Positions 756 to 16,132 of a stretch of DNA of 64,000 nt are shown here, one piece after another (within the stretch, counting starts at the first letter, position 1; every line of letters begins with the position of its first letter). The notes beneath the pieces are model-generated. The model was given only the letters and a program-made list of their open reading frames with translations, was not told the origin of the DNA and did no database searches. This DNA comes from Microbacterium sp. GCS4. Its GTDB lineage: Bacteria; Actinomycetota; Actinomycetes; Actinomycetales; Microbacteriaceae. Position numbers and translations under genes: made by a program. The stretch is from positions 238,368 to 302,367 of the forward strand of contig NZ_LGYE01000002.1 of NCBI RefSeq assembly GCF_001262495.1, read 5' to 3'.

Positions 756-1192
756 CGGTCGACCACCTTGCGTATCAGGGCACTCGCCTCGCGCAGGGTC
801 GCGAGCTCGTCGTCGGTGAAGTCGAGTTCGGCGAGCATGTCGGCGAGGAGGTCGTCGCGGCGCTGGATGGTCTCGGCCACGATCGCGGTGCCCGTCTCCG
901 TGATGTCGACGTGCACGCGCCTCCGGTCCTCGTCGTCGGGGATCCGGACCACGTAGCCCTGTTCCTCGAGGCCGTTGATCATGCTCGTCATGGAGGGCGC
1001 GGTGACGCGCTCGCGCTCGGCGAGAGCGCTGATCGTGCGACGGCCGTGCATGCGGAGAGTGGCGAGGACAGCGAGCTGCGCATCGCTCATGGCGTCGATC
1101 GCGCGGGCGCAGCGGAGGCGGCGCGCGAGCCGGAACACGGCCATGCGCAGGTCTGTCGCGGTGAGGTGGAGGGCTTCATCGGACGCAGACAT
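752..1192 (-). CDS. MarR-family transcriptional regulator
   Basis: A 146-residue protein of normal MarR length. A winged-helix DNA-binding region lies at about 50-100 (ISALAERERVTAPSMTSMIN as the helix-turn-helix, then the wing around IPDDEDRRRVHVDIT, with the conserved D-x-R-R-R type wing). The flanking helices would form the dimer interface. It is the first gene of a two-gene operon with the MFS exporter. The start ATG lies inside a perfect palindrome (1191-1213), a strong sign that the protein represses its own operon and is released by a small ligand. No good Shine-Dalgarno sequence precedes the ATG, and a TAGACT -10 box lies only 9 nt away, so the transcript is probably almost leaderless. 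Confidence 0.9.
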   Translation of the reverse strand: MSASDEALHLTATDLRMAVFRLARRLRCARAIDAMSDAQLAVLATLRMHGRRTISALAERERVTAPSMTSMINGLEEQGYVVRIPDDEDRRRVHVDITETGTAIVAETIQRRDDLLADMLAELDFTDDELATLREASALIRKVVDR

Positions 1193-1213
1193 TACTTAGA
1201 CAGTCTAAGTAAT
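1191..1213. promoter_or_regulatory. Perfect 11+1+11 palindrome over the marR start, probable MarR operator
   Basis: The arms ATTACTTAGAC and GTCTAAGTAAT flank a single central base with no mismatch. The site covers the start codon and, on the minus strand, a TAGACT -10-like box. MarR proteins bind palindromes of about this size. It is far more A/T-rich than its surroundings. The operator role is inferred from position and symmetry. Confidence 0.8.
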
Positions 1214-1340: not shown

Positions 1341-2753
1341 ATGCAGAGCCCTTCAGAGGTCCGTGACCACCTGCGATCCACCCTCGGATCTCGGGCGGAA
1401 GCGCGCGGAGTGCCCGGCGCGTCCGTCGCCGTCCTCGTCGACGGCGAGATCGTCGTGCACGCCGCAGGTCTCCTGAGCACCCGCACGCGTATCGAGGCGA
1501 CCACGGACGCCGTGTTCCAGATCGGCTCGATCACCAAGGGGTGGACGGCCACGCTCGTGATGCAGCTGGTCGACGAAGGTCTGGTCGACCTCGACGCCCC
1601 GCTCCGCTCGTACCTCCCGGAATTCGCGCTCGCGGACGAGAACGCGGCCGCCACGATCACCGTGCGCCAGCTCCTCAGCCACCGCTCCGGTTTCGAGGGC
1701 GACATCTTCACCGACACCGGACGCGGCGACGACGCCGTCGAGAAGTACGTGACGCTGCTCGCCGAGGCCCCGCAGATATTCGAGCCCGGCGCGCTGTTCT
1801 CGTACAGCAACGCCGGCTACGTGCTTCTCGGTCGACTCGTCGAGCGCCTGCGCGGCACCACCTGGGAGCAGGCGCTGCTGACGCATCTCGCGACGCCTCT
1901 GGACCTGCCCAGCGTCTCGCCCAGTCCCTACGAGGCCATCGTGCACCGCGTCGCCGTCGGACATCTGGATGCCCCGGACGGCGAACCGCAGCCCGCTCCC
2001 TTCTGGGCGATGGCGCGGTCGAACGAACCCGCGGGATCGATGCTGGCGATGACGGCCCGCGACCTCGCCGCCTTCGCCCACGCGCACCTTCGTGCGGCTG
2101 ACGGCTCGTCCGGGCCGGATGCCGAGAGCGCCATCGTGTCGTCCGGATCCGCGGCGACCATGCGCGCAGCCGCGGTGCGACTGCCTCGGCTGACCGGGAT
2201 GGGGGCGGCCTGGGGTCTCGGATGGGAGATCGATCGCGCCGAGGGCGTCGTGCTCTTCGGCCATGACGGCAACACGGTCGGTCAGTCGTCGTTCCTGCGG
2301 ATCGCCCCGGAGGCGGGTGTGGCCGTCGTACTGCTCACGAACGGCGGCGACGGCGCGGGCCTCTTCCACGACCTGGCCGACCCGCTCCTGCGCGAACTCA
2401 CCGGGGCGGGCCTGCCCGCGGCACCGCTTCCGTCGGCATCCGACTCCACCGCACCCGATCCCGCGGACGTCGACGTGGACGGCTTCCTCGGCGTCTACGC
2501 GAACTCGACCGTCGAGATGGAGGTGTCGCGGGACATGGAGGGGCGCCTGTGGCTCGAGCAGCGCCCGGCACCCGAGCTGAGCGCGCTCGGCGCCGAGCCC
2601 TCGACCGACGAACTCGTCCGCTTCGAGCAAGGATCGCTCATCGCCCGGGAGCCGAAGGACGGCCGGCACCTCGTGCTCGCCTTCCTCGCGCCGGGCGACG
2701 ACGGCCGCGCCTCGTACATCCATTTCGGCCGCGCCGTCCCGCGGTCCCGCTGA
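1341..2753 (+). CDS. Serine hydrolase, beta-lactamase/S12 family (EstB or D-aminopeptidase-like)
   Basis: A 470-residue cytoplasmic-looking protein (no signal peptide) of the PF00144 beta-lactamase/penicillin-binding-protein fold. The S-x-x-K motif is SITK at 63-66, the Y-x-N motif is YSN at 155-157, and FGHDGN lies where the third HxG/KTG-type motif belongs. A C-terminal accessory domain (about 375-470) follows. It is closely similar along its length to the C-terminal half of the 1121-residue fusion at 8092-11457, for example both have DxFTDTGRGDD. S12 members include D-aminopeptidases, DD-peptidases and esterases. The start fits a leaderless promoter (TAGAGT 6 nt upstream). It stands 70 bp ahead of the peptide transporter and probably belongs to the D-peptide cluster. 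Beta-lactamase activity is possible but unlikely without a secretion signal. Confidence 0.88.
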   Translation: MQSPSEVRDHLRSTLGSRAEARGVPGASVAVLVDGEIVVHAAGLLSTRTRIEATTDAVFQIGSITKGWTATLVMQLVDEGLVDLDAPLRSYLPEFALADENAAATITVRQLLSHRSGFEGDIFTDTGRGDDAVEKYVTLLAEAPQIFEPGALFSYSNAGYVLLGRLVERLRGTTWEQALLTHLATPLDLPSVSPSPYEAIVHRVAVGHLDAPDGEPQPAPFWAMARSNEPAGSMLAMTARDLAAFAHAHLRAADGSSGPDAESAIVSSGSAATMRAAAVRLPRLTGMGAAWGLGWEIDRAEGVVLFGHDGNTVGQSSFLRIAPEAGVAVVLLTNGGDGAGLFHDLADPLLRELTGAGLPAAPLPSASDSTAPDPADVDVDGFLGVYANSTVEMEVSRDMEGRLWLEQRPAPELSALGAEPSTDELVRFEQGSLIAREPKDGRHLVLAFLAPGDDGRASYIHFGRAVPRSR

Positions 2754-2823
2754 CCATCCGATCCCCTCGTCGCCACGCGGCGTGCACCCCGAGAAGCACG
2801 AACCCACTGCCTGGAGGAACGTC

Positions 2824-4401
2824 ATGACACCGAATCGCACCGCCGTCACCGTCGTGGTCGGCGTGACCGCTCTCGCCACCGTGCTCACCGGGTGCGGGAC
2901 CGACGGAGGTGGAGGAGAGCCGGTGAAGGGCGGCACCTTCACCGAGATCCTCGGCTCCGACCCCGGCAGTCTCGACCCGCAGCTGTCGGCGGGCAGCGCG
3001 CTGTTCGACATCAGCAAGCTCGCGTACGACACCCTCGTCAGTGTCGACTCCGACGGTGAGGTGCGCAGCCAGCTCGCCACCGAGTGGGAGGTCGACGGCA
3101 CCACAGCGACCCTGAAGATCCAGGACGGCATCACCTGCGGTGACGGCACGCCGTTCACCGCGCAGAGCGCCGCCGACAACCTGAACTGGATCTCCGATCC
3201 CGCGAACCAGAGCGGCTTCCTCGGGGCCTTCCTCCCGGTCGGCGTGTCCAGCGCGGCCGATGGCGACACCGTCACCATGACACTGTCGAGCCCCGCGCCG
3301 TTCCTCCTGCTCGGTCTCTCGGGGCTCCCCATGGTGTGCGACACCTCGCTGAACGACCGCGACGGGCTCGCGGCAGGCACGGACGGCACCGGGCCGTACG
3401 TCCTCACCGAGGCCGTGCCCAACGACCACTACACGTACGAGCTGCGCGAGGACTACGCTTGGGGCCCCGGCGGGGCCACGGTCGACGAGGAGGGCATCCC
3501 CGCGAAGGTGAACGTCCGCGTCGTCTCCGACGGTACGACCGCGGCGAACCTCCTGCTCTCGGGCGAGGCCAACGCCGCGCAGCTCACCGGCCCCGACGCC
3601 GACCGGGCGATCGGCGCCGGGCTCTTCCAGCGTGAAGGCACTGCAATCGCCGGCGAGCAGTGGTACAACCACGCGGAGGGGCACCCGACGAGCGACCCCG
3701 CCGTGCGCATGGCGCTCACCCAGGCGGTCGACCTCGACGAGCTCGCGAACGTGATGACCGCGGGCAAGGGGGGACCTGCCACGGCCCTCGCGGTCGTCGA
3801 GCCGACCGTGTGCACGTACGACGCGATCGCCGAGTCGCGCCCGGCCTTCGACGTCGACGCCGCCAATGCGACGCTCGACGAGGCCGGGTGGGTGCGCGGC
3901 TCCGACGGCGTGCGCGTCAAGGACGGCCAGCGACTGAGCCTGACGTTCCTGTACGAGAACAGTCTGGGCGCCGCCGCCGCAGCCGCCGCCGAGCTCGCGC
4001 TCTCGGCCTGGAAGGACATCGGCGCGGAGGTCGACGGGAAGCAGCAGGACGAGACCGCGCTGCTGGAGGCGACCTTCAGCACCGGGGCGTGGGACGTCGC
4101 ATGGCTGACGCTCAGCGTCAACAGCCCCGACCAGGCCATCGGCTTCGTGAGCGGCACCGTGCCGCCCGAGGGGTCGAACTTCTCGGCCATCGAGAACGCG
4201 GAGTACACGGATGCCGTCGCTCGGGCGTCCGAGATGAACGGCAGCGAGGGCTGCGACGTGTGGCAGGAGGCGGAGAGCGCCCTGTTCGCGGCTGCCGACA
4301 TCGTGCCCTTCGCGAACGCGACGATCTACATGTTCGGCAACGGCGCCGAGTTCGACTGGACGGGCGTGATCGAGCCGACGAGCATCCGCCTGGTCGGCTG
4401 A
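2824..4401 (+). CDS. Peptide ABC transporter substrate-binding lipoprotein (SBP_bac_5)
   Basis: A 525-residue extracytoplasmic binding protein of the oligopeptide/nickel family (PF00496). The N-terminus is a lipoprotein signal: hydrophobic stretch, then LTGC as lipobox, then a Gly-rich linker. The family pattern is clear: GGTFTEILGSDPGSLDPQ near the mature N-terminus, KLAYDTLV, LATEWEV, and AVRMALTQAVDLDEL in the middle. The start is fixed by GGAGGAA 6-7 nt before ATG 2824. It captures peptides outside the membrane and passes them to the permeases encoded by the next genes (40 bp gap). The neighbouring racemase pathway suggests the ligands contain D-residues, which is inference. Confidence 0.93.
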   Translation: MTPNRTAVTVVVGVTALATVLTGCGTDGGGGEPVKGGTFTEILGSDPGSLDPQLSAGSALFDISKLAYDTLVSVDSDGEVRSQLATEWEVDGTTATLKIQDGITCGDGTPFTAQSAADNLNWISDPANQSGFLGAFLPVGVSSAADGDTVTMTLSSPAPFLLLGLSGLPMVCDTSLNDRDGLAAGTDGTGPYVLTEAVPNDHYTYELREDYAWGPGGATVDEEGIPAKVNVRVVSDGTTAANLLLSGEANAAQLTGPDADRAIGAGLFQREGTAIAGEQWYNHAEGHPTSDPAVRMALTQAVDLDELANVMTAGKGGPATALAVVEPTVCTYDAIAESRPAFDVDAANATLDEAGWVRGSDGVRVKDGQRLSLTFLYENSLGAAAAAAAELALSAWKDIGAEVDGKQQDETALLEATFSTGAWDVAWLTLSVNSPDQAIGFVSGTVPPEGSNFSAIENAEYTDAVARASEMNGSEGCDVWQEAESALFAAADIVPFANATIYMFGNGAEFDWTGVIEPTSIRLVG

Positions 4402-4441
4402 GAGTCCCCGCCGCCCCCGACGCTCGGATCGAATCGACGAC

Positions 4442-5437
4442 ATGACGACATTGACCACCCGCCTCGCCGAAGACGACGCGCGCGTCGGCGACCACCGCTG
4501 GCTGAGGTTCGCCCTGCGCCGCACCGGTCGGCTGCTCGTCTCGCTGTGGATCCTCATCACGGCATCCTTCCTGATGATCCACCTCGTTCCCGGTGATCCG
4601 ATCCGGGCGGCGCTCGGGCCGACGGCACCGGCCGCGGTCGTCGAGGCGAGGCGGGAGTCGCTGGGGCTGAACGACCCGATCTGGCAGCAGTACCTCGACT
4701 ACCTCCGGGGGGTGTTCAGCGGCGACCTGGGGGTGTCGATCGGGTCGCAGCTGCCCGTCGCGGACACGATCGCGCAGCGGCTGCCGGCCACGCTGACGCT
4801 CGCGCTGCTGGCCTTCGTGCTCGCGGTGCTGATCGCCATCCCGCTGGGCATGGCCGTCGCCGCGGCGACGCAGCGCGGCAGGGCGCGGGGGCTCGAGGTG
4901 GGCTTCAGCTCGACGAGCGTCGTGATCGGGTCGATCCCCGACTTCCTCCTGGCCGTGGCCCTCGTGGCGGTGTTCGGCGTCCAGCTCGGATGGTTGCCGG
5001 TCGCCGGGCGGGAGGGGCCGCTGTCCTACATCCTCCCGGTGCTCGCGCTCGCGCTCGGGCCGGCGGCGATCCTCGCCCGCATCCTCCGCATCGAGGCGCT
5101 CTCGGTGCTCGACGCCGACTTCGTGCGCACCGCGCACGCCAAGCGGCTGCGGGGTCCGCGCATCACCCTGCGGCACGTGCTGCCGAACGCCGTGACGGCC
5201 ACGCTCACTCTCGGCGGACTGCTGCTGAGCGGGCTCGTCGCGGGCACCGTGCTCGTCGAGACCGTGTTCGCGTGGCCGGGGCTCGGCAGCACGATCGTCA
5301 GTTCGATCCAGGCCAAGGACTATCCGCTCGTGCAGGGCACCGTGCTCGTCTACGGCGTGGGCGTGCTGCTCGTGAACACCCTCGTCGACGCCGCGCTCGC
5401 GGTGCTCGACCCCCAGTCGACGGCGGCCGACGCATGA
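4442..5437 (+). CDS. Peptide ABC transporter permease, DppB/OppB type
   Basis: A 331-residue inner-membrane protein of the BPD_transp_1 family. It has the DppB N-terminal signature FLMIHLVPGDPIRAALG near residues 40-56, a first helix, and then the five-helix permease core. The EAA loop for ATPase contact is seen at EALSVLDADFVRTAHAKRLR about two thirds along. Members of this subfamily pair with a DppC partner, which is the next gene. The stop overlaps the next ATG by 4 bp (ATGA), so translation is coupled. The ATG follows the binding-protein stop by 40 bp with no visible terminator. Confidence 0.92.
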   Translation: MTTLTTRLAEDDARVGDHRWLRFALRRTGRLLVSLWILITASFLMIHLVPGDPIRAALGPTAPAAVVEARRESLGLNDPIWQQYLDYLRGVFSGDLGVSIGSQLPVADTIAQRLPATLTLALLAFVLAVLIAIPLGMAVAAATQRGRARGLEVGFSSTSVVIGSIPDFLLAVALVAVFGVQLGWLPVAGREGPLSYILPVLALALGPAAILARILRIEALSVLDADFVRTAHAKRLRGPRITLRHVLPNAVTATLTLGGLLLSGLVAGTVLVETVFAWPGLGSTIVSSIQAKDYPLVQGTVLVYGVGVLLVNTLVDAALAVLDPQSTAADA

Positions 5438-7299
5438 GGCGCGCGCTCGCGACGATGGTGCGCACGCCGCTCGGTGCGACGGCGCTGGCGCTGCTCGCGA
5501 TCGTCGTGCTCACAGCGATCGTCGCCCCGATGATCTGGGGCGAGCAGGCCGACGTGACCGACACCGGCGACCTGCTCGCCGGTCCGTCCGCCGAGCATCT
5601 GATCGGCACCGACAACCTCGGCAGGGACCTGCTGCTGCGGACGATCGTCGCCACACGTCTGTCGATCGTGCTCGCGCTGCTCGCGACCCTCGTCGCGGTG
5701 GTCGCCGGTCTCATCCTCGGCGTCGCCCCGCTGCTGCTCGGGCCGGTGCTCGGTCGGGCGATGACGTGGTTCACGGGCATCGCGGTCGCGTTCCCCGGTC
5801 TGCTGCTGGCACTGTTCTTCGCCGCGATCTTCGGCAGCACCGCCACCGCCGCGGTCTTCGCGCTCGGCCTCGCGGGAGCGCCGTCCTTCGCCCGTCTGTG
5901 CCAGAACCTCATCGCCGGCATCGAGGCCCGCGACTTCGTGGCAGCTGCCCGGGTGGGCGGGATCGGGCGCGTGCGGGTGCTGTTCCGCCACATCCTGCCG
6001 AACATCGGCGAACCCCTCATCGTGAACACGACCATCGGCGCGGGCGGCACGCTGCTCGCCTTCGCCGGCCTGTCGTTCCTCGGCCTCGGCGTGCAGCCGC
6101 CCGAGTACGACTGGGGCCGTCTGATGATGGACGGTCTGCGCGGCATCTACGCCAACCCCCTCGCCGCTCTCGCGCCGGGCCTCGCGGTCGTGATCGCCGG
6201 ACTCGCCTTCAACCTGACGGGCGAATCGGCCGCACGCAGCCTGGGTCTCGCGGATGACGTGCTGCTGCGCACCGCGATCCGCCCCCGCCGCTCCCGCCGG
6301 ACGTCGGGCGCACGCGCGGCCGCGCCGATCGCCCCGACGGCGCCGGAGGACGGCGCCGTGCTGGAGGTCGAGGATCTGCGGGTCGACTTCGAGAGCGCCG
6401 ACGGCACCGTGGTGCACGCCGTGCGCGGGATCGACTTCGAGGTGGGAGCGGGCGAGATCGTCGGGATCGTCGGCGAGTCCGGCTCGGGCAAGTCGATGAC
6501 CGCGCTCGCGGTGGCGCGGCTCGTGAACCCGCCGGGCCGCGTGACGGCATCCGCTCTGCGCTTCCTCGGCGTCGACCTGGTGTCGGCCGAGCGGCCGGCG
6601 CTGCGCCGCCTGCTCGGCACCTCGATGGCGATGGTGTTCCAAGACCCGATGTCATCGTTCAACCCGACCATGCGCATGGGGGCGCAGCTGGCCGAGGTCG
6701 CCACCGAGCATGCCGGCCTGAGCCGGCGCGAGGCGCTCGTCCGGGCAGCCGACCGGCTCGCAGCCGTGCGCATCAGCGCGCCGCAGCGCCGCGTGCGGCA
6801 GTACCCGTACGAGTTCTCGGGCGGGATGCGTCAGCGCGCCATGATCGGCATGGGTCTCATGGTGACGCCGCGCCTGATCATCGCCGACGAGCCCACGACG
6901 GCCCTCGACGTGACGGTGCAGAGCCAGGTCCTCGACCTGCTGCGGGCGATCCGCGACGAGGACGGCGCGTCGATCCTCTTCATCAGCCACGACATCTCCG
7001 TGGTCGCCGAACTCTGCGATCGCGTGCTCGTGATGCGCTCCGGCGAGATCGTCGAGTCGCTCCCGGCGACCGACCTGTCGTCGGCACGGCATCCGTACAC
7101 GCGGGCGCTGCTCGCCGCCGTCCCGCACATGGCGACAGATCTCGACCGCCCGCTCGCGACTCTCGCGACGCTGGCCGAGGAGGAGGGCCGCACGACGGCT
7201 GCGGAGGGCCCTGTCGGCGCCGAGCGTGCGTCGGGTGCCGAGGAGGCCGCCGTCCCGCCCGACGCGGGGTCCGACCACGAGGAGGTGGGCAGCCGATGA
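5434..7299 (+). CDS. Fused peptide ABC transporter permease (DppC) and ATPase (DppD)
   Basis: One 621-residue frame carries two parts that are normally separate proteins. Residues 1-275 are a DppC permease: N-terminal helix, the periplasmic HLIGTDNLGRD motif, an EAA loop around EARDFVAAARVGG, and FLGLGVQPPEYDWG near the end. A short Arg/Ala-rich linker (about 280-305) leads to an ABC ATPase with Walker A GESGSGKS, Q-loop VFQDPMSSFNP, signature FSGGMRQR, Walker B LIIADEPT and switch His in ISHDIS, then the oligopeptide-type C-terminal tail HPYTRALLAAVP. All catalytic residues are intact. The reading frame is uninterrupted across the junction. It overlaps both neighbours by 4 bp and would assemble with DppB and the second ATPase. 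Confidence 0.9.
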   Translation: MRRALATMVRTPLGATALALLAIVVLTAIVAPMIWGEQADVTDTGDLLAGPSAEHLIGTDNLGRDLLLRTIVATRLSIVLALLATLVAVVAGLILGVAPLLLGPVLGRAMTWFTGIAVAFPGLLLALFFAAIFGSTATAAVFALGLAGAPSFARLCQNLIAGIEARDFVAAARVGGIGRVRVLFRHILPNIGEPLIVNTTIGAGGTLLAFAGLSFLGLGVQPPEYDWGRLMMDGLRGIYANPLAALAPGLAVVIAGLAFNLTGESAARSLGLADDVLLRTAIRPRRSRRTSGARAAAPIAPTAPEDGAVLEVEDLRVDFESADGTVVHAVRGIDFEVGAGEIVGIVGESGSGKSMTALAVARLVNPPGRVTASALRFLGVDLVSAERPALRRLLGTSMAMVFQDPMSSFNPTMRMGAQLAEVATEHAGLSRREALVRAADRLAAVRISAPQRRVRQYPYEFSGGMRQRAMIGMGLMVTPRLIIADEPTTALDVTVQSQVLDLLRAIRDEDGASILFISHDISVVAELCDRVLVMRSGEIVESLPATDLSSARHPYTRALLAAVPHMATDLDRPLATLATLAEEEGRTTAAEGPVGAERASGAEEAAVPPDAGSDHEEVGSR

Positions 7300-8045
7300 G
7301 CGAGCTCGTCTTCGACGACGTCTCGGTGCGCTACGGCGTCGGCCGCGGCGCCATGACCGCGGTGGATCGCGTCTCGCTCACCGTCCCCGACGGAGGCGTC
7401 ACCGGTGTCGTCGGCGAGTCCGGATCGGGCAAGTCCACGCTCGCCAGGGCCGCAGTCGGACTCGTGCCGCTGCACGGCGGACGGATCCTGCTCGACGGCG
7501 CCCCCATCCCACGCCGCGGGCCGCGTCCGCTGCAGATGGTGTTCCAGGACCCGTACTCCTCCCTCGACCCGCGGATGCCGGTCGGGGCGAGCATCGCCGA
7601 GATGATGCCGTCCGGCATGACCAGACGGGAGCGGGCCGCCGAGGCCGCGCGACTGCTCGAGCTCGTGCAGCTCGATCCCGACAAGGCCGACGCGCGTCCC
7701 TCGCGGTTCTCGGGCGGTCAGCGGCAGCGCATCGCGATCGCCCGCGCCCTCGCCGGCCGGCCCCGTGTGCTCATCGCCGACGAGATCACCTCGGCGCTCG
7801 ACGTGCTCATCCAGGGCGCGATCCTCAACCTGCTCCGGGAGCTACAGGACGAGCTCGGGTTCTCGATGCTCTTCATCTCGCACAACCTCGCGGTCGTGCG
7901 GTACGTCGCCTCGCACATGGCCGTCATGCGCGACGGCCGCGTGGTGGAGCAGGGGCCGACGGCCGCCGTGCTCGACGATCCGCACGACGAGTACACGCGG
8001 CAGCTGCTCGCCGCGATCCCCCGACCGATCCAGTACACCCCCTGA
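7296..8045 (+). CDS. Peptide ABC transporter ATP-binding protein, DppF type
   Basis: A 249-residue ABC ATPase: Walker A GESGSGKS, Q-loop VFQDPYSSLDPRM (typical of DppF/OppF), signature FSGGQRQR, Walker B VLIADEITSALD and switch His ISHNLA. It lacks most of the extended C-terminal oligopeptide tail, ending shortly after EYTRQLLAAIPRP. It is the second nucleotide-binding subunit; the first is fused to the permease. The ATG overlaps the preceding stop (ATGA). ATP hydrolysis by the two domains powers peptide import. Confidence 0.93.
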   Translation: MSELVFDDVSVRYGVGRGAMTAVDRVSLTVPDGGVTGVVGESGSGKSTLARAAVGLVPLHGGRILLDGAPIPRRGPRPLQMVFQDPYSSLDPRMPVGASIAEMMPSGMTRRERAAEAARLLELVQLDPDKADARPSRFSGGQRQRIAIARALAGRPRVLIADEITSALDVLIQGAILNLLRELQDELGFSMLFISHNLAVVRYVASHMAVMRDGRVVEQGPTAAVLDDPHDEYTRQLLAAIPRPIQYTP

Positions 8046-8091
8046 ACCGTCCCGACCCGGCGCCACGAACGCCGCAACCGAAGGAGTCACC

Positions 8092-11000
8092 GTGACCCGC
8101 AGAATGAGCATCGACGACGCTCTCGCTCTGACCGTGCCGAGTCAGCCGACGCTGTCGTCGACCGGCGACCGGCTCGTCTACGTCCTCGCCGCGACGGACG
8201 TCGCCGAGGACCGCAGCACGAGCGCGCTCTGGATCGCCGAGAACGGGGCGACGCGCGCTCTCACGCGCGGCCCGTCCGACTCGAGCCCGGTCTTCTCTCC
8301 GGACGGCTCGCAGGTCGCGTTCCTCCGCGAAGGCCAGCTGTGGACGCTCCCGCTCGCGGGCGGCGAGCCGGAGCAGCGCACGACCCTGCCGCTCGGCGCC
8401 GGTGTGCCGGTGTGGAGCCCCGACAGCACGCGCATCGCGTTCACGGCCGCGGTGGTGCCGCTCTCCGCGCAGGGTGAGGGGGAGAGCGGCGAGCAGCGGG
8501 CGGAGCGGGAGAAGGCCCCGATCGTCGCGACCGGGATCGACTATCTCGCGGACGGGGCGTGGTTCACCCGCGGCGTGCGCGATCAGCTGCATGTGCTCGA
8601 CGTGGCGGACGGGCGCGTGCGCCGACTGACCGACGGCGTGGCCGGCGTCGGCAGCCCCGCCTGGTCTCCCGACGGCGCCACCCTCGCCTACGTCGCACGA
8701 CCCGACGGCGCTGACGACCTCGCGTTCCGCTCCTCGGTGCAGGCGCTCGACCCCGCCGATCCCGCCGCCCGCCCCCGCACTCTCGCCTTCGCCGAGGGCT
8801 TCGCGGGCACCGTGTCGTTCACGCCCGACGGTGCGAGCCTGGTCGTCATCGGCTGGAACGGCGAGCCCGAGGGGCACGCCGGCCTCTTCGTCGTCGAGCT
8901 CGCATCGGGTGAGGTCGTCGACGCGGCGCGCGACCTCGACCGCAACGTCATGCCCGGAGCCCCCGCCTATCCGGGCGCGCTGCCGCAGGTCACGGCATCC
9001 GGCGACATCCTCTTCGCGGTCCGCGACCGCGGCGCGACCCACCTCTACGCCGTACCGGTGGCCGGCGGTGAGCCTCGGCTCGTGCACGGCGGCACCGACG
9101 AGGTCGTGAGCGGACTGTCGGTCGCGGGCGACACCGCGGCGATCGCGCTGACGACCCCGACGTCGTTCGGCGAGATCCTGCGCCTCGACCTCGCGGCGGG
9201 TACGAGCGCCGTGCTCACCGCGCACGGCGACGCGCCGGACGGGGCCGAGCTGTTCGTGCGCGAGAGCCGCGAGTTCTCGATCAGCGACGGCACCGTCGTG
9301 CAGGGCTGGATCGTGCGCGACCCCGCGGTCACCGGCGCGACCCCGCTGCTCGTCGACATCCACGGCGGACCGCACAACGCGTGGAACGGCGCGGTCGACG
9401 AGATGCACCTGTACCACCAGCAGCTCGCGGCGGACGGGTGGACGATCCTCATGATCAACCCGCGGGGCAGCGACGGGTACGGCGAGGACTTCTGGCGCGG
9501 CGTGAACGGTGGCTGGGGCGTCTCCGACGCGAAGGACTTCCTGGAGCCGGTCGACGAGCTCGTCGCGGAGGGGACGGCGGATGCCGCACGGCTCGCCGTC
9601 GCCGGATACAGCTACGGCGGCTACATGACGGCGTACCTCACCGGACACGACGACCGGTTCGCGGCGGCCGTCGCCGGCGGCATCGTCGCCGACCTGTTCA
9701 GCATGGGCGGCACGAGCGACGACGCGCACATGCTCAACGTGCTCGAGCTCGGCGTCATGCCGTGGGCCTCCGCCGACCGGGAGACGCTCACCGCGATGTC
9801 GCCGTACTCGGCCGTCGAGAACGTGACGACGCCGACGCTCGTGCTGCACGGAGAGAAGGACCTGCGGTGCCCCGTGCACCAGGCGCAGCAGTGGCACTAC
9901 GCGCTGCGCGAGCGCGGCGTGCCCACCGAGCTCGTGCTCTACCCCGGCGGCAGTCACGTGTTCCCGCTGCTCGGGGCGCCGAGCCACCGGGTCGACTACG
10001 CGCGGCGCATCGTCGACTGGGTCGAGCGCTTCGCCGGGAGCACCCGCGGTGTGCGCCCGGCCGCGATCGACGCCGCGCACTGGCAGCACCGGCTCGACGA
10101 GCTCGCCCGGCTGCACGACGTGCCGGGCGCGCAGCTCGGCATCCTCCGCTACGACCCCGAGGGTCGTGACGAGGTCGTCACTGCCGCCACCGGCACGCTC
10201 AACGCCGATCTGCCGGCGGCGTCGGCGACGGTGCTGCCCGACTCCGTCTTCCAGATCGGCTCGATCTCGAAGGTGTGGACCGCGACCGCGGTGATGCGGC
10301 TGATCGAGCAGGGGGCCTTCACGCTCGACACCCCGGTCGTGGAGATCGTGCCCGAGCTGCAGCTCGCGACCGAGGAGTTCACCAGGGGTGTCACGGTGCG
10401 CCACCTGCTCACCCACACGAGCGGCATCGACGGCGACGTGTTCACCGACACCGGTCGCGGTGACGACTGCCTGGAGAAGTACACGGGGCTGTTCCCGGAG
10501 ATCGGTGTGAACCACCCGCTCGGCGCGACCTGGTCGTACTGCAACTCGGGCTTCTCGCTGCTCGGACGCGTGATCGAGAAGGCCACGGGCAGTGTCTGGG
10601 ACACGGCGATGCGCGACCTGGTCTTCACGCCGCTCGGGCTCACGCACACCGTGACGCTGCCCGAGGAGGCGATCCTGCACTCCGCGGCGGTCGGCCATGT
10701 CGAGACCGGCGAGAAGCCCGTGATCGCCCCGGTCTGGGCGCTGCCCCGCTCGCTGGGTCCGGCAGGGCTCATCACCGCTCGGGCAGCGGACGTGCTCGCG
10801 TTCGCGCGTCTGCACCTGGCCGGCGGCGTCGCGGCGGACGGCACGCGTCTGCTCGCCGAGGACACCGTGGCCGAGATGCAGGCGTTCCAGGCCGAGGTGC
10901 CCGACAAGCACATCCTCGGCGACTCGTGGGGGCTCGGCTGGATCCGCTTCGACTGGAACGGCGAGCGCCTCTATGGACACGACGGCAACACGATCGGCCA

Positions 11001-11457
11001 GGCGGCGTTCCTGCGCGTGCACCCCGGGTCCGGCGTCGCGGTGACGCTGCTCACGAACGGCGGTCACACACGCGACCTGTACGAGGACCTCTACCGCGAG
11101 ATCTTCGCCGAGCTGTCGGGCGTGACCATGCAAGCCACCGTGCAGCCGCCGGCCGAGCCGGTCGAGATCGACATCGCGCCGTACGTCGGCACCTACGAGC
11201 GCGCCTCGGTGCGCGCGGAGGTGTTCGTCGGCGACGACGGACCGGTGCTCCGCACCACCGTGCTCGGGCCGCTCGCCGAGCTCGAGTCCGACCCGGTCGA
11301 CGAGTACGCGCTCACCCCCTACAGCGATGGAGTGTTCGCGCTCCGCGCCCCCGGGACGCAGACCTGGATGACGGCGACGTTCTACGAGCTGCCGACCGGC
11401 GAGCAGTACCTGCACTTCGGTGCGCGGGCCACCCCGAAGGTGTCGAGCGGCGCATGA
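8092..11457 (+). CDS. Fusion of S9 prolyl-oligopeptidase-family peptidase and S12 beta-lactamase-family hydrolase
   Basis: The start is GTG 8092, set by AAGGAG 5 nt upstream; the protein has 1121 residues. Residues 1 to about 390 form a WD40/TolB-like beta-propeller with repeated SPDG motifs. About 400-650 is an S9 alpha/beta-hydrolase domain: oxyanion region DIHGGPH, nucleophile Ser507 in GYSYGGY, Asp590 in GEKDLRCP, His622 in GGSHVF. About 660-1010 is an S12 domain with S724-I-S-K727, Y816-C-N818 and H963 in GHDGN, followed by an accessory domain. Both active sites look complete. No signal peptide is present, so it acts on imported peptides. The S12 half is a paralogue of the 1341-2753 protein. 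Likely role: acylaminoacyl/oligopeptidase plus D-aminopeptidase or esterase, releasing D-residues for the racemase pathway (inference). Confidence 0.9.
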   Translation: MTRRMSIDDALALTVPSQPTLSSTGDRLVYVLAATDVAEDRSTSALWIAENGATRALTRGPSDSSPVFSPDGSQVAFLREGQLWTLPLAGGEPEQRTTLPLGAGVPVWSPDSTRIAFTAAVVPLSAQGEGESGEQRAEREKAPIVATGIDYLADGAWFTRGVRDQLHVLDVADGRVRRLTDGVAGVGSPAWSPDGATLAYVARPDGADDLAFRSSVQALDPADPAARPRTLAFAEGFAGTVSFTPDGASLVVIGWNGEPEGHAGLFVVELASGEVVDAARDLDRNVMPGAPAYPGALPQVTASGDILFAVRDRGATHLYAVPVAGGEPRLVHGGTDEVVSGLSVAGDTAAIALTTPTSFGEILRLDLAAGTSAVLTAHGDAPDGAELFVRESREFSISDGTVVQGWIVRDPAVTGATPLLVDIHGGPHNAWNGAVDEMHLYHQQLAADGWTILMINPRGSDGYGEDFWRGVNGGWGVSDAKDFLEPVDELVAEGTADAARLAVAGYSYGGYMTAYLTGHDDRFAAAVAGGIVADLFSMGGTSDDAHMLNVLELGVMPWASADRETLTAMSPYSAVENVTTPTLVLHGEKDLRCPVHQAQQWHYALRERGVPTELVLYPGGSHVFPLLGAPSHRVDYARRIVDWVERFAGSTRGVRPAAIDAAHWQHRLDELARLHDVPGAQLGILRYDPEGRDEVVTAATGTLNADLPAASATVLPDSVFQIGSISKVWTATAVMRLIEQGAFTLDTPVVEIVPELQLATEEFTRGVTVRHLLTHTSGIDGDVFTDTGRGDDCLEKYTGLFPEIGVNHPLGATWSYCNSGFSLLGRVIEKATGSVWDTAMRDLVFTPLGLTHTVTLPEEAILHSAAVGHVETGEKPVIAPVWALPRSLGPAGLITARAADVLAFARLHLAGGVAADGTRLLAEDTVAEMQAFQAEVPDKHILGDSWGLGWIRFDWNGERLYGHDGNTIGQAAFLRVHPGSGVAVTLLTNGGHTRDLYEDLYREIFAELSGVTMQATVQPPAEPVEIDIAPYVGTYERASVRAEVFVGDDGPVLRTTVLGPLAELESDPVDEYALTPYSDGVFALRAPGTQTWMTATFYELPTGEQYLHFGARATPKVSSGA

Positions 11458-12593
11458 GCATCCCGTCTTCGCTCGTCGCCGGCGCCCTCACGGAGGCGAC
11501 TCTCGTCTCCACGATCCGCCGGCTGATCGAGTGCGAGTCGCCCTCGGGTGACGACGCGGCCGTTGCCCGCTCGGCCGACGTCGTCGCCGAGATCGGCGCC
11601 GAGCTCCTGGGCGTCGAGCCCGAGCGCCTCGTGATCGACGGCTGCACCCACCTGCGTTGGCGCTTCGGCGCCGAGACCCGCGTGCTGCTCCTGACGCATC
11701 ACGACACCGTCTGGCCGCACGGCACCCTCGACCGGCTGCCGTTCGGCGTGGTCGACGGCGTGCTGCGAGGGCCGGGATCGTTCGACATGAAGACCGGGCT
11801 GGCGATGGTGCTGCACGCGGTCGCCGAGCTCGACGATCGCGACGGCGTGACGATCCTCGTGACCGGTGACGAGGAGACCGGGTCGGTGCGCTCTCGCGCG
11901 CTGATCGAGGAGACGGCGCGCGGCGCCGGCGCCGTGCTCGTCACCGAAGCCTCGGAGGGCGGAGCCTGGAAGGGCGCGCGCAAGGGCGTCGGCATGTATG
12001 AGGTCGCGGTGCGGGGCAAGGCGGCGCACGCGGGGCTCGAGCCCGAGAAGGGTGTCAACGCGACGGTCGCGCTCGCACACCTCGTGCTCGCGGTCGGCGC
12101 CCTCGCCGATGCGGATGACGGCACGACCGTGACACCCACCCGTGCCGACGCCGGCACGACGGGGAACACGGTGCCTGCCGAGGCCACCCTGCGCATCGAC
12201 GTGCGGGCCTGGTCGGCCGCCGAGTTGGACCGGGTGGATGCGGCGCTCCGCGCCTACGTCTCGCCCGTGCCGGGTGCGGTCGTGACGGTGCACGGCGGTA
12301 TCAACCGCCCGCCGCTCTCCCGCGAGATGTCGCAGGCGCTCGCCGCCCTCGCTGCGCGGCTCGGCGCGAGGCACGGTCTCGGCGATGTGCGTGCCGTCGA
12401 TGTCGGCGGGGGCAGCGACGGGAACTTCACGGCGGGTGCGGGCGTGCCGACCCTCGACGGCATGGGCGCCGTCGGCGGCGGCGCGCACGCCGACGACGAA
12501 CACGCGATCGTGGCGGAGATCCTGCCGCGGACGCGCCTGCTGGCCGACATGGCGGCGGAGATCTCGAGAACGGACGGATCATGGCAGAACTGA
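11454..12593 (+). CDS. M20-family metallo-amidohydrolase, probable N-succinyl-L-amino-acid desuccinylase
   Basis: A 379-residue member of the M20 peptidase family (ArgE/DapE/carboxypeptidase G2 group). Zinc-site motifs are H82-H-D84 in LTHHDTVWP, D111 in GSFDMKTG, E140-E141 in GDEETGS, and the distal GGAHADDEH. A dimerisation domain is present around GVGMYEVAVRGKAAHAG. It overlaps the upstream fusion by 4 bp and the downstream GNAT gene by 13 bp. In the described D-to-L amino-acid conversion pathway, an M20 enzyme removes succinate from the N-succinyl-L-amino acid. The gene order here matches that job. A general carboxypeptidase role is the alternative. Confidence 0.85.
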   Translation: MSIPSSLVAGALTEATLVSTIRRLIECESPSGDDAAVARSADVVAEIGAELLGVEPERLVIDGCTHLRWRFGAETRVLLLTHHDTVWPHGTLDRLPFGVVDGVLRGPGSFDMKTGLAMVLHAVAELDDRDGVTILVTGDEETGSVRSRALIEETARGAGAVLVTEASEGGAWKGARKGVGMYEVAVRGKAAHAGLEPEKGVNATVALAHLVLAVGALADADDGTTVTPTRADAGTTGNTVPAEATLRIDVRAWSAAELDRVDAALRAYVSPVPGAVVTVHGGINRPPLSREMSQALAALAARLGARHGLGDVRAVDVGGGSDGNFTAGAGVPTLDGMGAVGGGAHADDEHAIVAEILPRTRLLADMAAEISRTDGSWQN

Positions 12594-13390
12594 TGCACGA
12601 CGACGCGGTCGTGTCGTCCGCGCGGCATGACGCGGACCGCGCCGCAGCGGCATCCGGTGTCGCGATCAGGGAGCTCGGGGCGGTGGGGGAGCACGCCGAG
12701 GCCATCGCGCTGCTGTCGCGGATCTGGGGGCGTTCGCCCGAGAACCCGGTCGTGCCGCCCGAACTCATGCGGGCGCTCAGCAAGGCAGGCAACTACATCG
12801 GCGGCGCGTTCGTCGGCGATCGTCTCGTCGGCGTCGCGATCGCGTTCCACGCCGACCCCGAGCGGCATGCGCTGTACAGCCACATCGCCGGAATCGCGGC
12901 CGAGAGCGCCGGTCGATCGATCGGCTTCGCGCTCAAGCAGCACCAGCGGGCCTGGGCTCTGGGTCGCGGCATCGATGCGATCGAGTGGACGTTCGATCCG
13001 CTCGTCGCCCGCAACGCCCACTTCAACATCACCAAGCTCGGTGCGAGACCGCAGGAGTACCTCTCGGACTTCTACGGCGCGATGACCGACGGCGTCAACA
13101 GCGACGACGAGACCGATCGGCTGCTCATGCGCTGGGAGCTGCGCGACGCGGGCGTCGTGCTCCGCGCGCACGGCAGTTCCGCCCAGCCCGAGACGCGGAT
13201 GCCGGGCGACCGCAACGTCGCGGTACCGCCCGACATCGAGGGGCTGCGACGCGACGACCGCGCCGCGGCGCAGCGGTGGCGTTTCCTGGTGCGCGAGCAG
13301 CTCACCGGGGCGCTGGACGCGGGCGGGCGCATCGTCGGATTCGACCGCGCCGAGGGCTACATCATCCGACCGGAGAGGACAACGGCATGA
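12581..13390 (+). CDS. GNAT-superfamily acyltransferase (COG3375), probable D-amino-acid N-succinyltransferase
   Basis: A 269-residue GNAT-like protein. The acyl-CoA-binding region is recognisable as GGAFVGDRLVGVAIAF followed by YSHIAGIAAESAGRSIGFALKQHQRAWALGRG and then EWTFDPLVARNAHFNITKLG, the hallmark of the COG3375 group. This group is often encoded beside NSAR-type racemases, where it succinylates D-amino acids using succinyl-CoA. The N-terminal 25 residues look like a low-complexity extension, so a later start is possible. It overlaps the M20 gene by 13 bp and the racemase start by 4 bp, indicating translational coupling of the three enzymes. Confidence 0.83.
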   Translation: MAELMHDDAVVSSARHDADRAAAASGVAIRELGAVGEHAEAIALLSRIWGRSPENPVVPPELMRALSKAGNYIGGAFVGDRLVGVAIAFHADPERHALYSHIAGIAAESAGRSIGFALKQHQRAWALGRGIDAIEWTFDPLVARNAHFNITKLGARPQEYLSDFYGAMTDGVNSDDETDRLLMRWELRDAGVVLRAHGSSAQPETRMPGDRNVAVPPDIEGLRRDDRAAAQRWRFLVREQLTGALDAGGRIVGFDRAEGYIIRPERTTA

Positions 13391-14493
13391 GGATCGACGG
13401 GATCGAGCTGCGACGGGTGGCGATGCCGCTCGTCTCACCGTTCCGCACATCGTTCGGCACGCAGACTGCCAGGGACATCCTGCTCGTGCGGGCCGTGGTC
13501 GACGGCGTCGACGGGTGGGGCGAGTGCGTGACGCTGCCCGACCCCGTCTATTCGCCCGAGTACACCGAGGGCGCGGTCGACATGATCCGTCGCTACATCG
13601 TGCCGGCTCTGACCGGGGCCGAGCTCTCGGGCGCGCACATGGTCGGCGAGATGCTCGCGCCCTTCAAAGGCCATCGCATGGCGAAGGCCGCGATCGAGAC
13701 GGCCGTGCTCGACGCGGAGCTGCGGGCCGAGGGCCGCTCGTTCGCCCGTGAGCTGGGCGCCGTGCGCGACACCGTGCCGTGCGGGGTGTCGGTCGGGATC
13801 ATGGAGGAGATCCCGCGGCTGCTCGATGCGGTCGACGGATACCTCGCCGAGGGGTACGTGCGCATCAAGCTCAAGATCGAACCGGGGTGGGATGTCGACG
13901 TCGTGCGCGCGGTGCGCGAGCGCTTCGGCGACGAAGTGCTGCTGCAGGTCGACGCGAACACCGCGTACACGCTCCGCGACGCGCAGCACCTCGCCCGACT
14001 CGACGACTTCGACCTTCTCCTGATCGAGCAGCCCCTCGAGGAGGAGGACATCCTGGGGCATGCCGACCTGGCGCGGATGCTGAAGACGCCGATCTGCCTG
14101 GACGAGTCGATCACCTCGGCCCAGACCGCGGCCGCCGCGATCCGCCTCGGCGCCACGAGCGTCATCAACATCAAGCCCGGCCGCGTCGGCGGGTACCTCG
14201 AGGCGCGCCGCATCCACGACCTCGCCGTGGCCCAGGGCGTGCCGGTCTGGTGCGGGGGCATGGTCGAGAGCGGCATCGGCAGGGCCGCGAACGTGGCGCT
14301 CGCCGCGCTGCCGGGATTCGTCCTCCCCGGCGACGTCTCGGCGAGCGACCGCTTCTACCGGGTCGATCTCACCGAGCCGTTCGTGATGCGCGACGGCAGC
14401 CTCGCGGTCCCGCAGGGGGCAGGGCTCGGCGTGACCCCGATCCCGGAGATCCTCGACGAGCTCACGACCTCGACCGAGTGGCTTCCGATGTGA
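13387..14493 (+). CDS. N-succinylamino-acid racemase (enolase superfamily, NSAR/OSBS type)
   Basis: A 368-residue enolase-superfamily enzyme with MLE-type N-terminal cap and TIM barrel. The catalytic lysines are K163 (in RIKLKIEPG) and K263 (in NIKPGRVGG). The Mg ligands are D189 (QVDAN), E214 (IEQPL) and D239 (LDES). These positions are the same as I recall for the well-studied Amycolatopsis NSAR/OSBS. The signature GGMVESGIGRAANVALAALP is also typical of that group. The family can make o-succinylbenzoate for menaquinone or racemise N-succinylamino acids. No menaquinone genes are nearby, while a succinyltransferase-type GNAT and an M20 hydrolase are directly linked, so racemisation is the better call. 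Confidence 0.9.
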   Translation: MRIDGIELRRVAMPLVSPFRTSFGTQTARDILLVRAVVDGVDGWGECVTLPDPVYSPEYTEGAVDMIRRYIVPALTGAELSGAHMVGEMLAPFKGHRMAKAAIETAVLDAELRAEGRSFARELGAVRDTVPCGVSVGIMEEIPRLLDAVDGYLAEGYVRIKLKIEPGWDVDVVRAVRERFGDEVLLQVDANTAYTLRDAQHLARLDDFDLLLIEQPLEEEDILGHADLARMLKTPICLDESITSAQTAAAAIRLGATSVINIKPGRVGGYLEARRIHDLAVAQGVPVWCGGMVESGIGRAANVALAALPGFVLPGDVSASDRFYRVDLTEPFVMRDGSLAVPQGAGLGVTPIPEILDELTTSTEWLPM

Positions 14494-14496
14494 GGT

Positions 14497-14502
14497 TATG
14501 CT
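14497..14502 (+). promoter_or_regulatory. Probable -10 box (TATGCT) of a leaderless promoter for the PucR gene
   Basis: TATGCT lies 7 nt before ATG 14510. The upstream in-frame ATG at 14498 falls inside the box itself and has a GAGG only 2 nt away, so 14510 is the better start. The spacing is the same as at about 20 other genes in this window. Confidence 0.55.
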
Positions 14503-14509
14503 CGCCGAT

Positions 14510-16132
14510 ATGAGCGCGCTGTCACGGTCGAGCTGGGGTCGCGTGATCGACGATCTCGGCGTGACGCTGCTCGACGTGGCCTACGGGCGCATCGATGTGG
14601 ATCGGCAGGTCGGCGGCGTCGTGATCCACGATCCGCTCGACGAGCCGGTGTATCCGCCGGGAGCCGTGGTGCTGGCGGTCTCGCTGCGCGACGCCGACGA
14701 GCTCGCGGAGCTCGTGCGGCATGCCGGCGACCGGGATGCCGTCGCGGTGGTCGTGCGTGCCTCGACGGATCTCACCGACGCCGTCCGCGCGGCGGCCGAC
14801 ACCGCGGGCATCGCGGTGCTCGGACTCGCTCGGGGTGCGACGTGGACGCAGCTCGCCGCGTTGCTGCGCTCGTTGCTCGCCGAGGACGACGTCGGGCAGA
14901 CGCCGGCGGAATCGCTCGGAGGCGTCTCGTCGGGCGACCTGTTCGCAGTCGCCAACGCGATCGCCGCACTGCTCGACGCCCCCGTGACGATCGAGGACCG
15001 CTCCTCCCGGGTGCTCGCGTTCTCGGGCGGGCAGGAAGCGGCCGACCCCTCGCGGGTGGAGACCATCATCGGCAGGCAGGTGCCGGACCGGTACGCCCGA
15101 GTGCTCACCGAGATGGGCGTCTTCCGCGACCTCTACCGCGGCGACGCGCCTGTCGTCGTCGACCCCGTGCGTCTCGGCGAGGGCGTCTCCACGCAGCGCA
15201 TCGCGATCGCCGTGCGCGCGGGCGACGAGGTGCTCGGCTCGATCTGGGCCGCGATGGACGGGCCCCTCACCGACGAGCGGGCGGCGACGCTCCGTGACGC
15301 GACGACGCTCGTGGCGCTGCACCTGCTGCGCATCCGCGCCGGCGCCGACGCGCAGCGCAGTCTGCGCGCCGAACTCGTCAGCCGGGCTGTGGACGGCGGG
15401 CCGGACGCTCAGGACGCCCTGGGGCGACTGGGACTCGCGGGACGCCGGGTGTGGGTGATGGCGACCGCCCTCGCCCCCCGTGGGGAGGACGGGTCGGAGC
15501 ACGATTCGATCGCGGAACGCGAGCGCCTCACCGACGCCCTCGCGCTGCATCTGTCGGCCGTGCAGCAGGGCGCGGCGGTCGCGCTCGTGGGCGATACCGT
15601 CTACGGCATCCTGCCCGTGGCCGATGCTCCGGCCGAGGACCGATCGGCGCGTCTGGCCGAGGACTTCCTGCTGCGCGTCGGCGACCGCATCCCCGCCGTG
15701 ATCGGCATCGGGCGCCCGGCGGTCACGGTGGCCGAGATCGCCCGTTCCCGTGCCGAGGCGCACCGCGCGCTGCGCGTCGTGTCGGAGCGGTCTCCGCGTC
15801 ACCGCAGCCTCGCCCGCATCGCCGACGTCGAGACGGACTCCCTCCTGCTCGATCTGCGCGACCTGCGCAGTGCGCGCGGCGACCGCGCCTCCGGACCCCT
15901 CGCCCGGCTCGCCGACTACGACGCCGAGCACGACGCCCACCTCGTCGACACCCTGACCGCGTGGCTCGACCACTTCGGCGACGTCGCCGCGGCGGCCGCC
16001 TCCTGCTTCGTGCACGTCAACACGTTCCGCTACCGTCTGCGGCGCGTCGCCGAGGTCGGGGACATGGACCTCTCCGACGCCGATACCCGCTTCGCGGCGA
16101 TGCTCGAGATCCGCACCCTCCCGCGACGGTGA
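14510..16132 (+). CDS. PucR/CdaR-family transcriptional regulator
   Basis: A 540-residue regulator. The N-terminal ~120 residues form the PucR-type sensory domain (LGVTLLDVAYGR, then DAVAVVVRAS). A GAF-like middle region (about 150-280, DLFAVANAIAALLDAPVTIEDRSSRVLAFS) follows, then the GGDEF-like domain and the C-terminal PucR helix-turn-helix at about 475-530, where FVHVNTFRYRLRRV is the diagnostic recognition helix. Relatives control catabolism of purines, amino acids and glycerate-type acids, usually as activators responding to the substrate. It sits 16 bp after the racemase and is the obvious regulator of the peptide/D-amino-acid cluster, though no binding site could be identified. Confidence 0.88.
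   Translation: MSALSRSSWGRVIDDLGVTLLDVAYGRIDVDRQVGGVVIHDPLDEPVYPPGAVVLAVSLRDADELAELVRHAGDRDAVAVVVRASTDLTDAVRAAADTAGIAVLGLARGATWTQLAALLRSLLAEDDVGQTPAESLGGVSSGDLFAVANAIAALLDAPVTIEDRSSRVLAFSGGQEAADPSRVETIIGRQVPDRYARVLTEMGVFRDLYRGDAPVVVDPVRLGEGVSTQRIAIAVRAGDEVLGSIWAAMDGPLTDERAATLRDATTLVALHLLRIRAGADAQRSLRAELVSRAVDGGPDAQDALGRLGLAGRRVWVMATALAPRGEDGSEHDSIAERERLTDALALHLSAVQQGAAVALVGDTVYGILPVADAPAEDRSARLAEDFLLRVGDRIPAVIGIGRPAVTVAEIARSRAEAHRALRVVSERSPRHRSLARIADVETDSLLLDLRDLRSARGDRASGPLARLADYDAEHDAHLVDTLTAWLDHFGDVAAAAASCFVHVNTFRYRLRRVAEVGDMDLSDADTRFAAMLEIRTLPRR

Follow-up and report, generated by a model that had tools for sequence, protein, structure and literature searches.

The 64,000-nucleotide stretch of Microbacterium sp. 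GCS4 DNA analysed here (the window) carries, between positions 1341 and 16132, ten co-directional genes on the + strand that probably form a salvage system for peptides containing D-amino acids. The first gene (1341..2753) encodes S12a, a 470-amino-acid serine hydrolase of the penicillin-binding protein (PBP)/beta-lactamase fold (PF00144, 227 bits). It is followed by genes for a binding lipoprotein of the peptide/nickel/opine family SBP_bac_5 (2824..4401; PF00496, 168 bits, scored on a longer open reading frame (ORF) from 2782), an Opp/Dpp-type permease (4442..5437; PF00528 and PF19300), a 621-amino-acid protein in which the second permease is fused to the first importer ATPase (5434..7299; PF00528 at residues 88-263, PF00005 at 331-489) and a second importer ATPase (7296..8045; PF00005). 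The remaining genes encode a fused hydrolase of 1121 amino acids, S9-S12b (8092..11457; PF00326 at residues 443-649, PF00144 at 678-1000), an M20 metallohydrolase (11454..12593; PF01546 and PF07687) that is proposed to be an N-succinyl-L-amino acid desuccinylase, a GNAT acyltransferase (12581..13390) proposed to be a D-amino acid N-succinyltransferase, an N-succinylamino acid racemase (NSAR) of the NSAR/o-succinylbenzoate synthase (OSBS) subfamily (13387..14493), and a PucR-family regulator (14498..16132; PF13556 and PF17853) that is proposed to control the cluster.

An earlier note on this DNA had listed the same gene set (importer, two S12 domains, S9, GNAT, NSAR, M20 and PucR), and every member is present on this strand. 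It had also described the genes from 4442 to 14493 as linked by overlaps of mostly 4 bp. Most of these junctions are indeed of that kind (the spacings from S12a onward are 70, 40, -4, -4, 46, -4, -13, -4 and 4 nt), but the chain is broken by the 46-nt gap between the second ATPase and S9-S12 genes, and the M20 and GNAT genes overlap by 13. The S9-S12 gene has a GTG start with GAAGGAG just upstream.

Conservation of the cluster

The neighbourhoods of related genes were surveyed from two different seeds. Specifically, with NSAR as the seed we took 80 named loci, those with the highest scores out of more than 564 NSAR relatives, which are consequently near relatives and no random draw. The counts use the 71 of these 80 loci with at least 15 kb of sequence, nine shorter loci having been dropped beforehand. 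GNAT is found in 68 of the 71, S12 in 60, PucR in 58, permease and M20 in 53 each, and S9 in 41. Furthermore, S12, permease and GNAT occur jointly at 51 loci, with M20 as well at 41 and with PucR too at 39. By record title, the loci come from Microbacterium, Leucobacter, Nocardioides, Phycicoccus, Klenkia, Actinomadura, Herbidospora, Amycolatopsis, Lentzea, Pseudonocardia, Streptomyces, Nonomuraea and others. The closest relatives in named records, among the matches listed, are from Microbacterium, with NSAR sequences that are 95-97% identical.

In the reverse survey the seed was the S9-S12 fusion, for which 393 other genomes at class level were searched, and 26 of them gave a full-length match. 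Neighbouring genes were counted at a threshold of 100 bits (70 for GNAT, 200 for NSAR). M20, GNAT, permease and the first ATPase lie near the fusion at all 26 loci, the binding protein and NSAR at 25, and PucR at 21; S9 and S12 are part of the seed itself, and the second ATPase was left uncounted. The sole locus lacking NSAR (L196) has a contig edge directly after GNAT. These 26 genomes are not independent, since they belong to only four family groups, 18 of them to one group, and four genomes are common to both surveys (L020/L181, L064/L205, L007/L218 and L009/L145). The fusion searches scored only two candidates per genome, and extra copies may escape them. As a control we used the neighbourhoods of MenC in 25 genomes, the window's own and 24 others with the cluster (24 stretches of 20 kb and one of 13.8 kb); for each of the 11 queries counted, none of the 25 stretches held a match above threshold. 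The surveys find the enzymes, importer and hydrolases kept together more than chance would allow, and the cluster is a conserved unit.

In a sample of the phylum, 48 of 395 other genomes gave a match, and the sole full-length fusion (G334) comes from outside the class and lies beside GNAT, NSAR and PucR genes. Copies or partial copies of the cluster are also present on plasmids of Streptomyces and Arthrobacter, and one named Streptomyces plasmid (L227) repeats the gene order of the window, S9-S12 fusion included. Two further Streptomyces plasmids (L221, positions 9405-11933, and L225) carry variant clusters with transposase genes nearby. In both, M20-GNAT-NSAR is preceded by genes for two additional enzymes, a serine hydrolase resembling class A beta-lactamases and an amidohydrolase of family PRK09061.

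The racemase and a separate MenC

The window NSAR aligns over 366 residues, with 586 bits, to 1sja, which we take to be the characterised N-acylamino acid racemase of Amycolatopsis. It also passes TIGR01928, a model named for o-succinylbenzoate synthase (310 bits against a cut-off of 200.65). K161, K163, D189, E214, D239, K263 and R266 are invariant in 81 of 81 sequences. These positions presumably comprise both catalytic lysines and the metal ligands, with R266 marking the NSAR/OSBS subfamily; the solved variant 7s8w has Q at the position of R266. In A. orientalis (L083), a racemase that differs from 1sja at 9 of 368 positions, as counted by eye on the alignment, lies in the order M20-GNAT-NSAR-PucR, and in other Amycolatopsis (L058, L068 and L075) S12 and importer genes are found past PucR. 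As an example of enzyme promiscuity, the actinobacterial N-acylamino acid racemase has textbook status. A kinetic table in one study records racemization of both N-succinyl and N-acetyl amino acids by NSAR (PMC8142540), and another describes the use of the actinobacterial enzyme to make optically pure amino acids (PMC7431475).

The genome that contains the window has a separate actinobacterial MenC gene (L003:1189-2166), whose product scores 469.6 bits against a cut-off of 288. A separate MenC above the curated cut-off is present in 25 of 27 genomes with the cluster; the two without one are large and belong to a single genus, in which we presume the futalosine route to be used. Plasmid records that list a gene here call the NSAR orthologues menC or o-succinylbenzoate synthase, also where GNAT and S12 genes lie next to them. 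Because nearly every cluster genome has its own MenC, this label on the cluster racemases is misleading.

One candidate protein (P0098) joins GNAT in frame to the N-terminus of NSAR, with the remaining NSAR sequence out of frame. The loss of frame makes an assembly slip likely, and this weak candidate was not used.

The acyltransferase and the M20 hydrolase

The window GNAT was compared with NSAR-adjacent GNATs of Lysinibacillus and Deinococcus. The hhalign value is 99.7% over 246 columns for Lysinibacillus and 99.9% over 244 for Deinococcus, and BLASTP gave 24% identity with an E value of 1e-23, calculated for a single comparison. Judged by these alignments, the window GNAT is homologous along its full length to the NSAR-adjacent GNATs of both genera. 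Its predicted structure has a GNAT fold, with a predicted local distance difference test score (pLDDT) of 92.3. A fold search assigned residues of about 25-194 to the GNAT fold, with N-terminal acetyltransferases at the top in tied ranks that point to no substrate and the C-terminal third barely covered; a search against PDB sequences gave no match up to an E value of 1.

The M20 protein scores only 39.8 bits against TIGR01891, the model for M20D enzymes (cut-off 153.75), and is not of M20D type, whereas the M20 proteins of Lysinibacillus (269) and Priestia (263) pass this model. Its score against PRK06133 is 221 bits, under the cut-off of 349, and its best solved relative is carboxypeptidase G2 (1cg2). 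Nine positions are presumed, from the roles we assign them, to bind metal or to act in catalysis; eight are invariant in 57 of 57 sequences and the ninth is kept in 55 of 57. On these comparisons the enzyme is of the carboxypeptidase-G2/ArgE-DapE type and is no ortholog of the Bacillales M20D enzyme. This outcome divides the view, advanced in the earlier note, that the locus holds the three enzymes known from Geobacillus to convert D- to L-amino acids: the racemase is of the NSAR type and the GNAT is homologous, but the M20 enzyme is not of the Bacillales type. A simple transfer of the Bacillales desuccinylase function to it is ruled out by the difference in subfamily, which makes a desuccinylase role a new assignment. 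DapE-type enzymes, which lie on this side of the M20 family, do remove succinyl groups, and desuccinylation by the window enzyme is therefore plausible.

The S12 and S9-S12 hydrolases

S12a and S12b share 38% sequence identity along their length. S12a carries the motifs SITK, YSN and HDG, and the S, K, Y, N, H and G of the corresponding SxxK, YxN and HxG motifs are invariant in 61 of 61 sequences. After IS11, the best solved relative of both units is 6ksu, which we take to be SurE. The solved relatives of S12b further include Ulm16 and Pab87 (2qmi), the latter aligning to the protease domain of S12b, and those of S12a include a DD-peptidase (1cef), Pab87 and an alkaline D-peptidase (4y7p). A lipobox scan and an N-terminal hydropathy profile, the only two methods applied, revealed no export signal in the hydrolases, and the N-terminus of S12a is not strongly hydrophobic. 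Since no signal was recognised, we read these hydrolases as cytosolic.

Adjacent S9 and S12 units in the surveyed loci form one frame in 66 of 69 pairs and are split in three (two genomes are counted twice). The structural model of the S9-S12 fusion has a pLDDT of 86.4 and a predicted template modelling score (pTM) of 0.76. Only S9 structures were among the 50 Foldseek matches listed for the fusion, and S12b was consequently compared by sequence only. The PDB structures nearest to the S9 half are S9 carboxypeptidases and acylaminoacyl-peptidases. Because some of these relatives are carboxypeptidases, we propose that the S9-S12 protein may trim peptides of mixed chirality from one end, taking off L- and D-residues by turns. 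If one unit were an L-specific exopeptidase and the other a D-specific one, their fusion into a single chain would be explained.

The importer and regulatory features

All five components of an ATP-binding cassette (ABC) importer of the peptide/nickel/opine type are present, namely the binding lipoprotein, two permease domains and two ATPase domains. The binding protein has the lipobox LTGC at residue 21. The permease-ATPase fusion is found in 55 of the 57 named loci that carry this permease on the + strand. The family of the binding protein covers peptides, nickel and opine-metals as ligands, and no NCBIfam equivalog scored above its cut-off for the importer among the matches listed. At one of the 26 fusion-seeded loci (L185, genome G1007) the core of hydrolase, M20, GNAT and NSAR is the same and the importer has diverged to 23-46% identity, as would be expected after an exchange of the transporter.

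A plasmid of Lysinibacillus fusiformis (L222, positions 4315-9107) carries a gene for a POT-family oligopeptide symporter upstream of M20D-GNAT-NSAR. This symporter is unrelated to the importer of the window and fits peptide uptake that feeds the pathway through a second kind of transporter. Also, on a plasmid of Deinococcus radiodurans (L219, positions 11977-14708), a gene whose annotation reads ABC transporter substrate-binding protein lies between the NSAR and GNAT genes.

Between S12a and a divergent gene, labelled MarR-like from a reading of its sequence only, lies a palindrome (1191..1213) with perfect 11-bp arms and a 1-nt spacer. Its 21-bp core has a single match in the window and none in 100 shuffles. 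The palindrome is probably a MarR operator, and its position possibly places it near the promoter of the cluster as well.

A proposed pathway for D-residue peptide salvage

The gene content, together with the conserved association of these genes, makes it fairly probable that the cluster is a self-contained salvage system in which peptides with D-residues are imported, hydrolysed in the cytosol and their D-amino acids inverted to the L-form via N-succinyl intermediates. The Opp/Dpp-type transporter would import peptides bearing D-amino acids, and the S12 and S9-S12 hydrolases, whose S12 units presumably prefer D-residues, would cut them in the cytosol. GNAT would then succinylate the released D-amino acids, presumably from succinyl-CoA, and NSAR would racemize the N-succinyl-D-amino acids. 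Finally, the carboxypeptidase-G2/DapE-type M20 enzyme would desuccinylate the product to yield L-amino acids, with PucR as the likely regulator of the whole.

Several observations weigh against this pathway, in addition to the subfamily of the M20 enzyme. The best solved match of both S12 units is IS11, and the solved relatives of S12 also include esterases and many beta-lactamases. Among NCBIfam models the S9 half comes nearest to dipeptidyl-peptidase 5 (165.8 bits against a cut-off of 900) and then to a lasso-peptide isopeptidase (103.6 against 400), neither of them a carboxypeptidase. The family models that score best for the binding protein describe nickel and opine-metal binders, and none of them reaches its cut-off. 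At the A. orientalis locus with the racemase closest to 1sja, neither importer nor S12 was seen, the contig stopping after PucR, and the 19.9 kb surveyed around the G334 fusion showed no recognisable M20 or importer permease. Among the NSAR-seeded loci, 18 of 71 have no permease match and 11 no S12 match, some being cut by the locus edge, and four (L017, L033, L052 and L069) hold, among the genes counted, only GNAT and NSAR. NSAR lies nearby at six of 13 loci examined for a single-domain match and is missing from seven, all S12-only. Even within its own genus the cluster is patchy, the fusion being found in two of 11 other same-genus genomes of the class survey.

Other loci are similarly reduced to M20, GNAT and NSAR among the genes counted (L022, L036, L037 and L047) or to NSAR alone (L077). 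Parsimony on a rapidly built NSAR tree with 124 rows calls for S12 to change 9 times, the permease 13 times and S9 12 times, counts that are inflated by loci cut at their flanks. These changes indicate that modules of the cluster come and go, and the cluster is modular and patchy across genomes.

Alternative explanations can account for parts of the cluster. The public 'menC' annotation would make the racemase an o-succinylbenzoate synthase for menaquinone, and NSAR/OSBS-subfamily enzymes can indeed carry out both reactions, as the title of entry 7s8w also states for that enzyme; the match to TIGR01928 and the plasmid gene labels point the same way. However, the window genome and 25 of the 27 cluster genomes have a separate MenC, and the cluster genes counted are absent from all 25 control stretches around it. 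The racemase is not the only OSBS candidate of its genome, and we reject the menaquinone explanation as scarcely credible.

Murein recycling would use much the same parts: the importer would take up stem peptides, S12 would trim D-Ala and the racemase module would handle D-residues, in the manner of the ykf operon. The PBP fold of S12 and the DD-carboxypeptidases among its solved relatives agree with such a role. Against it, NSAR prefers hydrophobic residues to D-Ala or D-Glu, and the window racemase scores 83 bits where the L-Ala-D/L-Glu epimerase model requires 500, compared with a score above cut-off for NSAR/OSBS. Furthermore, the listed family matches of the ten ORFs include no LD-carboxypeptidase, gamma-glutamyl-diaminoacid endopeptidase or NlpC/P60-type endopeptidase. 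We consider murein recycling unlikely, even with the precedents of Pab87, which is reported to remove the C-terminal D-Ala of murein pentapeptides (PMC2651629), and of ykf, which is described as uniting an enolase-superfamily epimerase, peptidases and an ATPase like those of oligopeptide transporters (PMC3305447). Also rather improbable is a system for degrading N-acylated or otherwise blocked compounds, such as N-acyl amino acids, opine-like molecules or lipopeptides, in which the racemase would act directly on imported N-acyl amino acids. It would draw on the acylaminoacyl-peptidases among the relatives of the S9 half, on the likeness of the binding protein to nickel and opine-metal binders, on the PRK09061 amidohydrolase of some variant clusters and on the reported turnover of N-acetyl-methionine by N-acylamino acid racemases (PMC8142540). 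However, if substrates arrived already N-acylated, the GNAT found at 68 of 71 named and all 26 fusion-seeded loci would have no purpose.

Salvage of D-residue peptides, which we prefer, can be extended to a bolder proposal that we hold only tentatively and think doubtful as a whole. A two-handed S9-S12 exopeptidase, with an L-site and a D-site in one chain, would unzip peptides of mixed chirality and, with a dedicated importer and a cycle of acylation, racemization and deacylation, would form a widespread actinobacterial system for eating the D-residue peptide antibiotics of other microbes. The Amycolatopsis 'N-acylamino acid racemase' would then have its natural setting in such a system.

Comparison with known systems

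A three-gene pathway of GNAT, NSAR and M20 in Geobacillus and other Bacillales reportedly converts D- to L-amino acids, with GNAT said to succinylate the D-amino acid and the hydrolase said to take the L-form only, which would make the flow one-way. The window shares GNAT and NSAR homologues with this pathway, again next to an M20 hydrolase, and the trio is also annotated on plasmids of Lysinibacillus and Priestia. It differs in the type of its M20 enzyme (carboxypeptidase G2/DapE rather than M20D) and in the addition of the importer, two S12 units, S9 and PucR.

A second precedent is Pab87, a CubicO-like S12 exopeptidase of Pyrococcus abyssi that is described as D-stereospecific both as an aminopeptidase and as a carboxypeptidase, a property its authors deem typical of most S12 proteases (PMC2651629). 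Its gene lies near those for a D-aminoacylase and a dipeptide ABC transporter, and the authors propose bacterial cell-wall debris as the source of its substrates (PMC2651629). An S12-type hydrolase near a transporter is common to both loci. In contrast, the account of the Pab87 locus, as far as it was available, mentions neither NSAR nor GNAT (PMC2651629), and the S12b of the window is fused to S9. The CubicO motifs YAEA[FL] and FFYLN are absent from S12a and S12b and from all 113 entries scanned, which are the best S12b and S9 entry per locus with fusions counted twice. A C-terminal ERY that resembles a CubicO motif is present in 36 of these 113 entries, the window not among them.

The ykfABCD genes of Bacillus are described as encoding an enolase-superfamily epimerase, cytosolic peptidases and an ATPase like those of oligopeptide transporters, a set that resembles the one found here; unlike the window cluster, ykf as described has no cycle of acylation and deacylation (PMC3305447). 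D-stereospecific peptidases that act on D-residue peptides are also described from nonribosomal-peptide gene clusters, where they serve resistance within biosynthesis (PMC9231227); the context here is presumably uptake and catabolism. Of all these systems, the three-gene D-to-L pathway and the Pab87 locus with its D-peptidase come closest to the cluster. The claim that the combination had not been described as one system holds for the open-licence full-text literature searched, in which no description was found, and has to be tempered by the close precedent of Pab87 (PMC2651629).

Biological implications

The conserved cluster for import and hydrolysis gives the racemase a concrete and probable natural role, and the finding corrects the misleading 'menC' label on NSAR orthologues. 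The S9-S12 peptidase fusion may act on peptides that ordinary proteases cannot digest. Furthermore, the patchy distribution of the cluster and its copies on plasmids suggest a mobile catabolic trait, which could affect how long peptides with D-residues, antibiotics among them, persist in soil.

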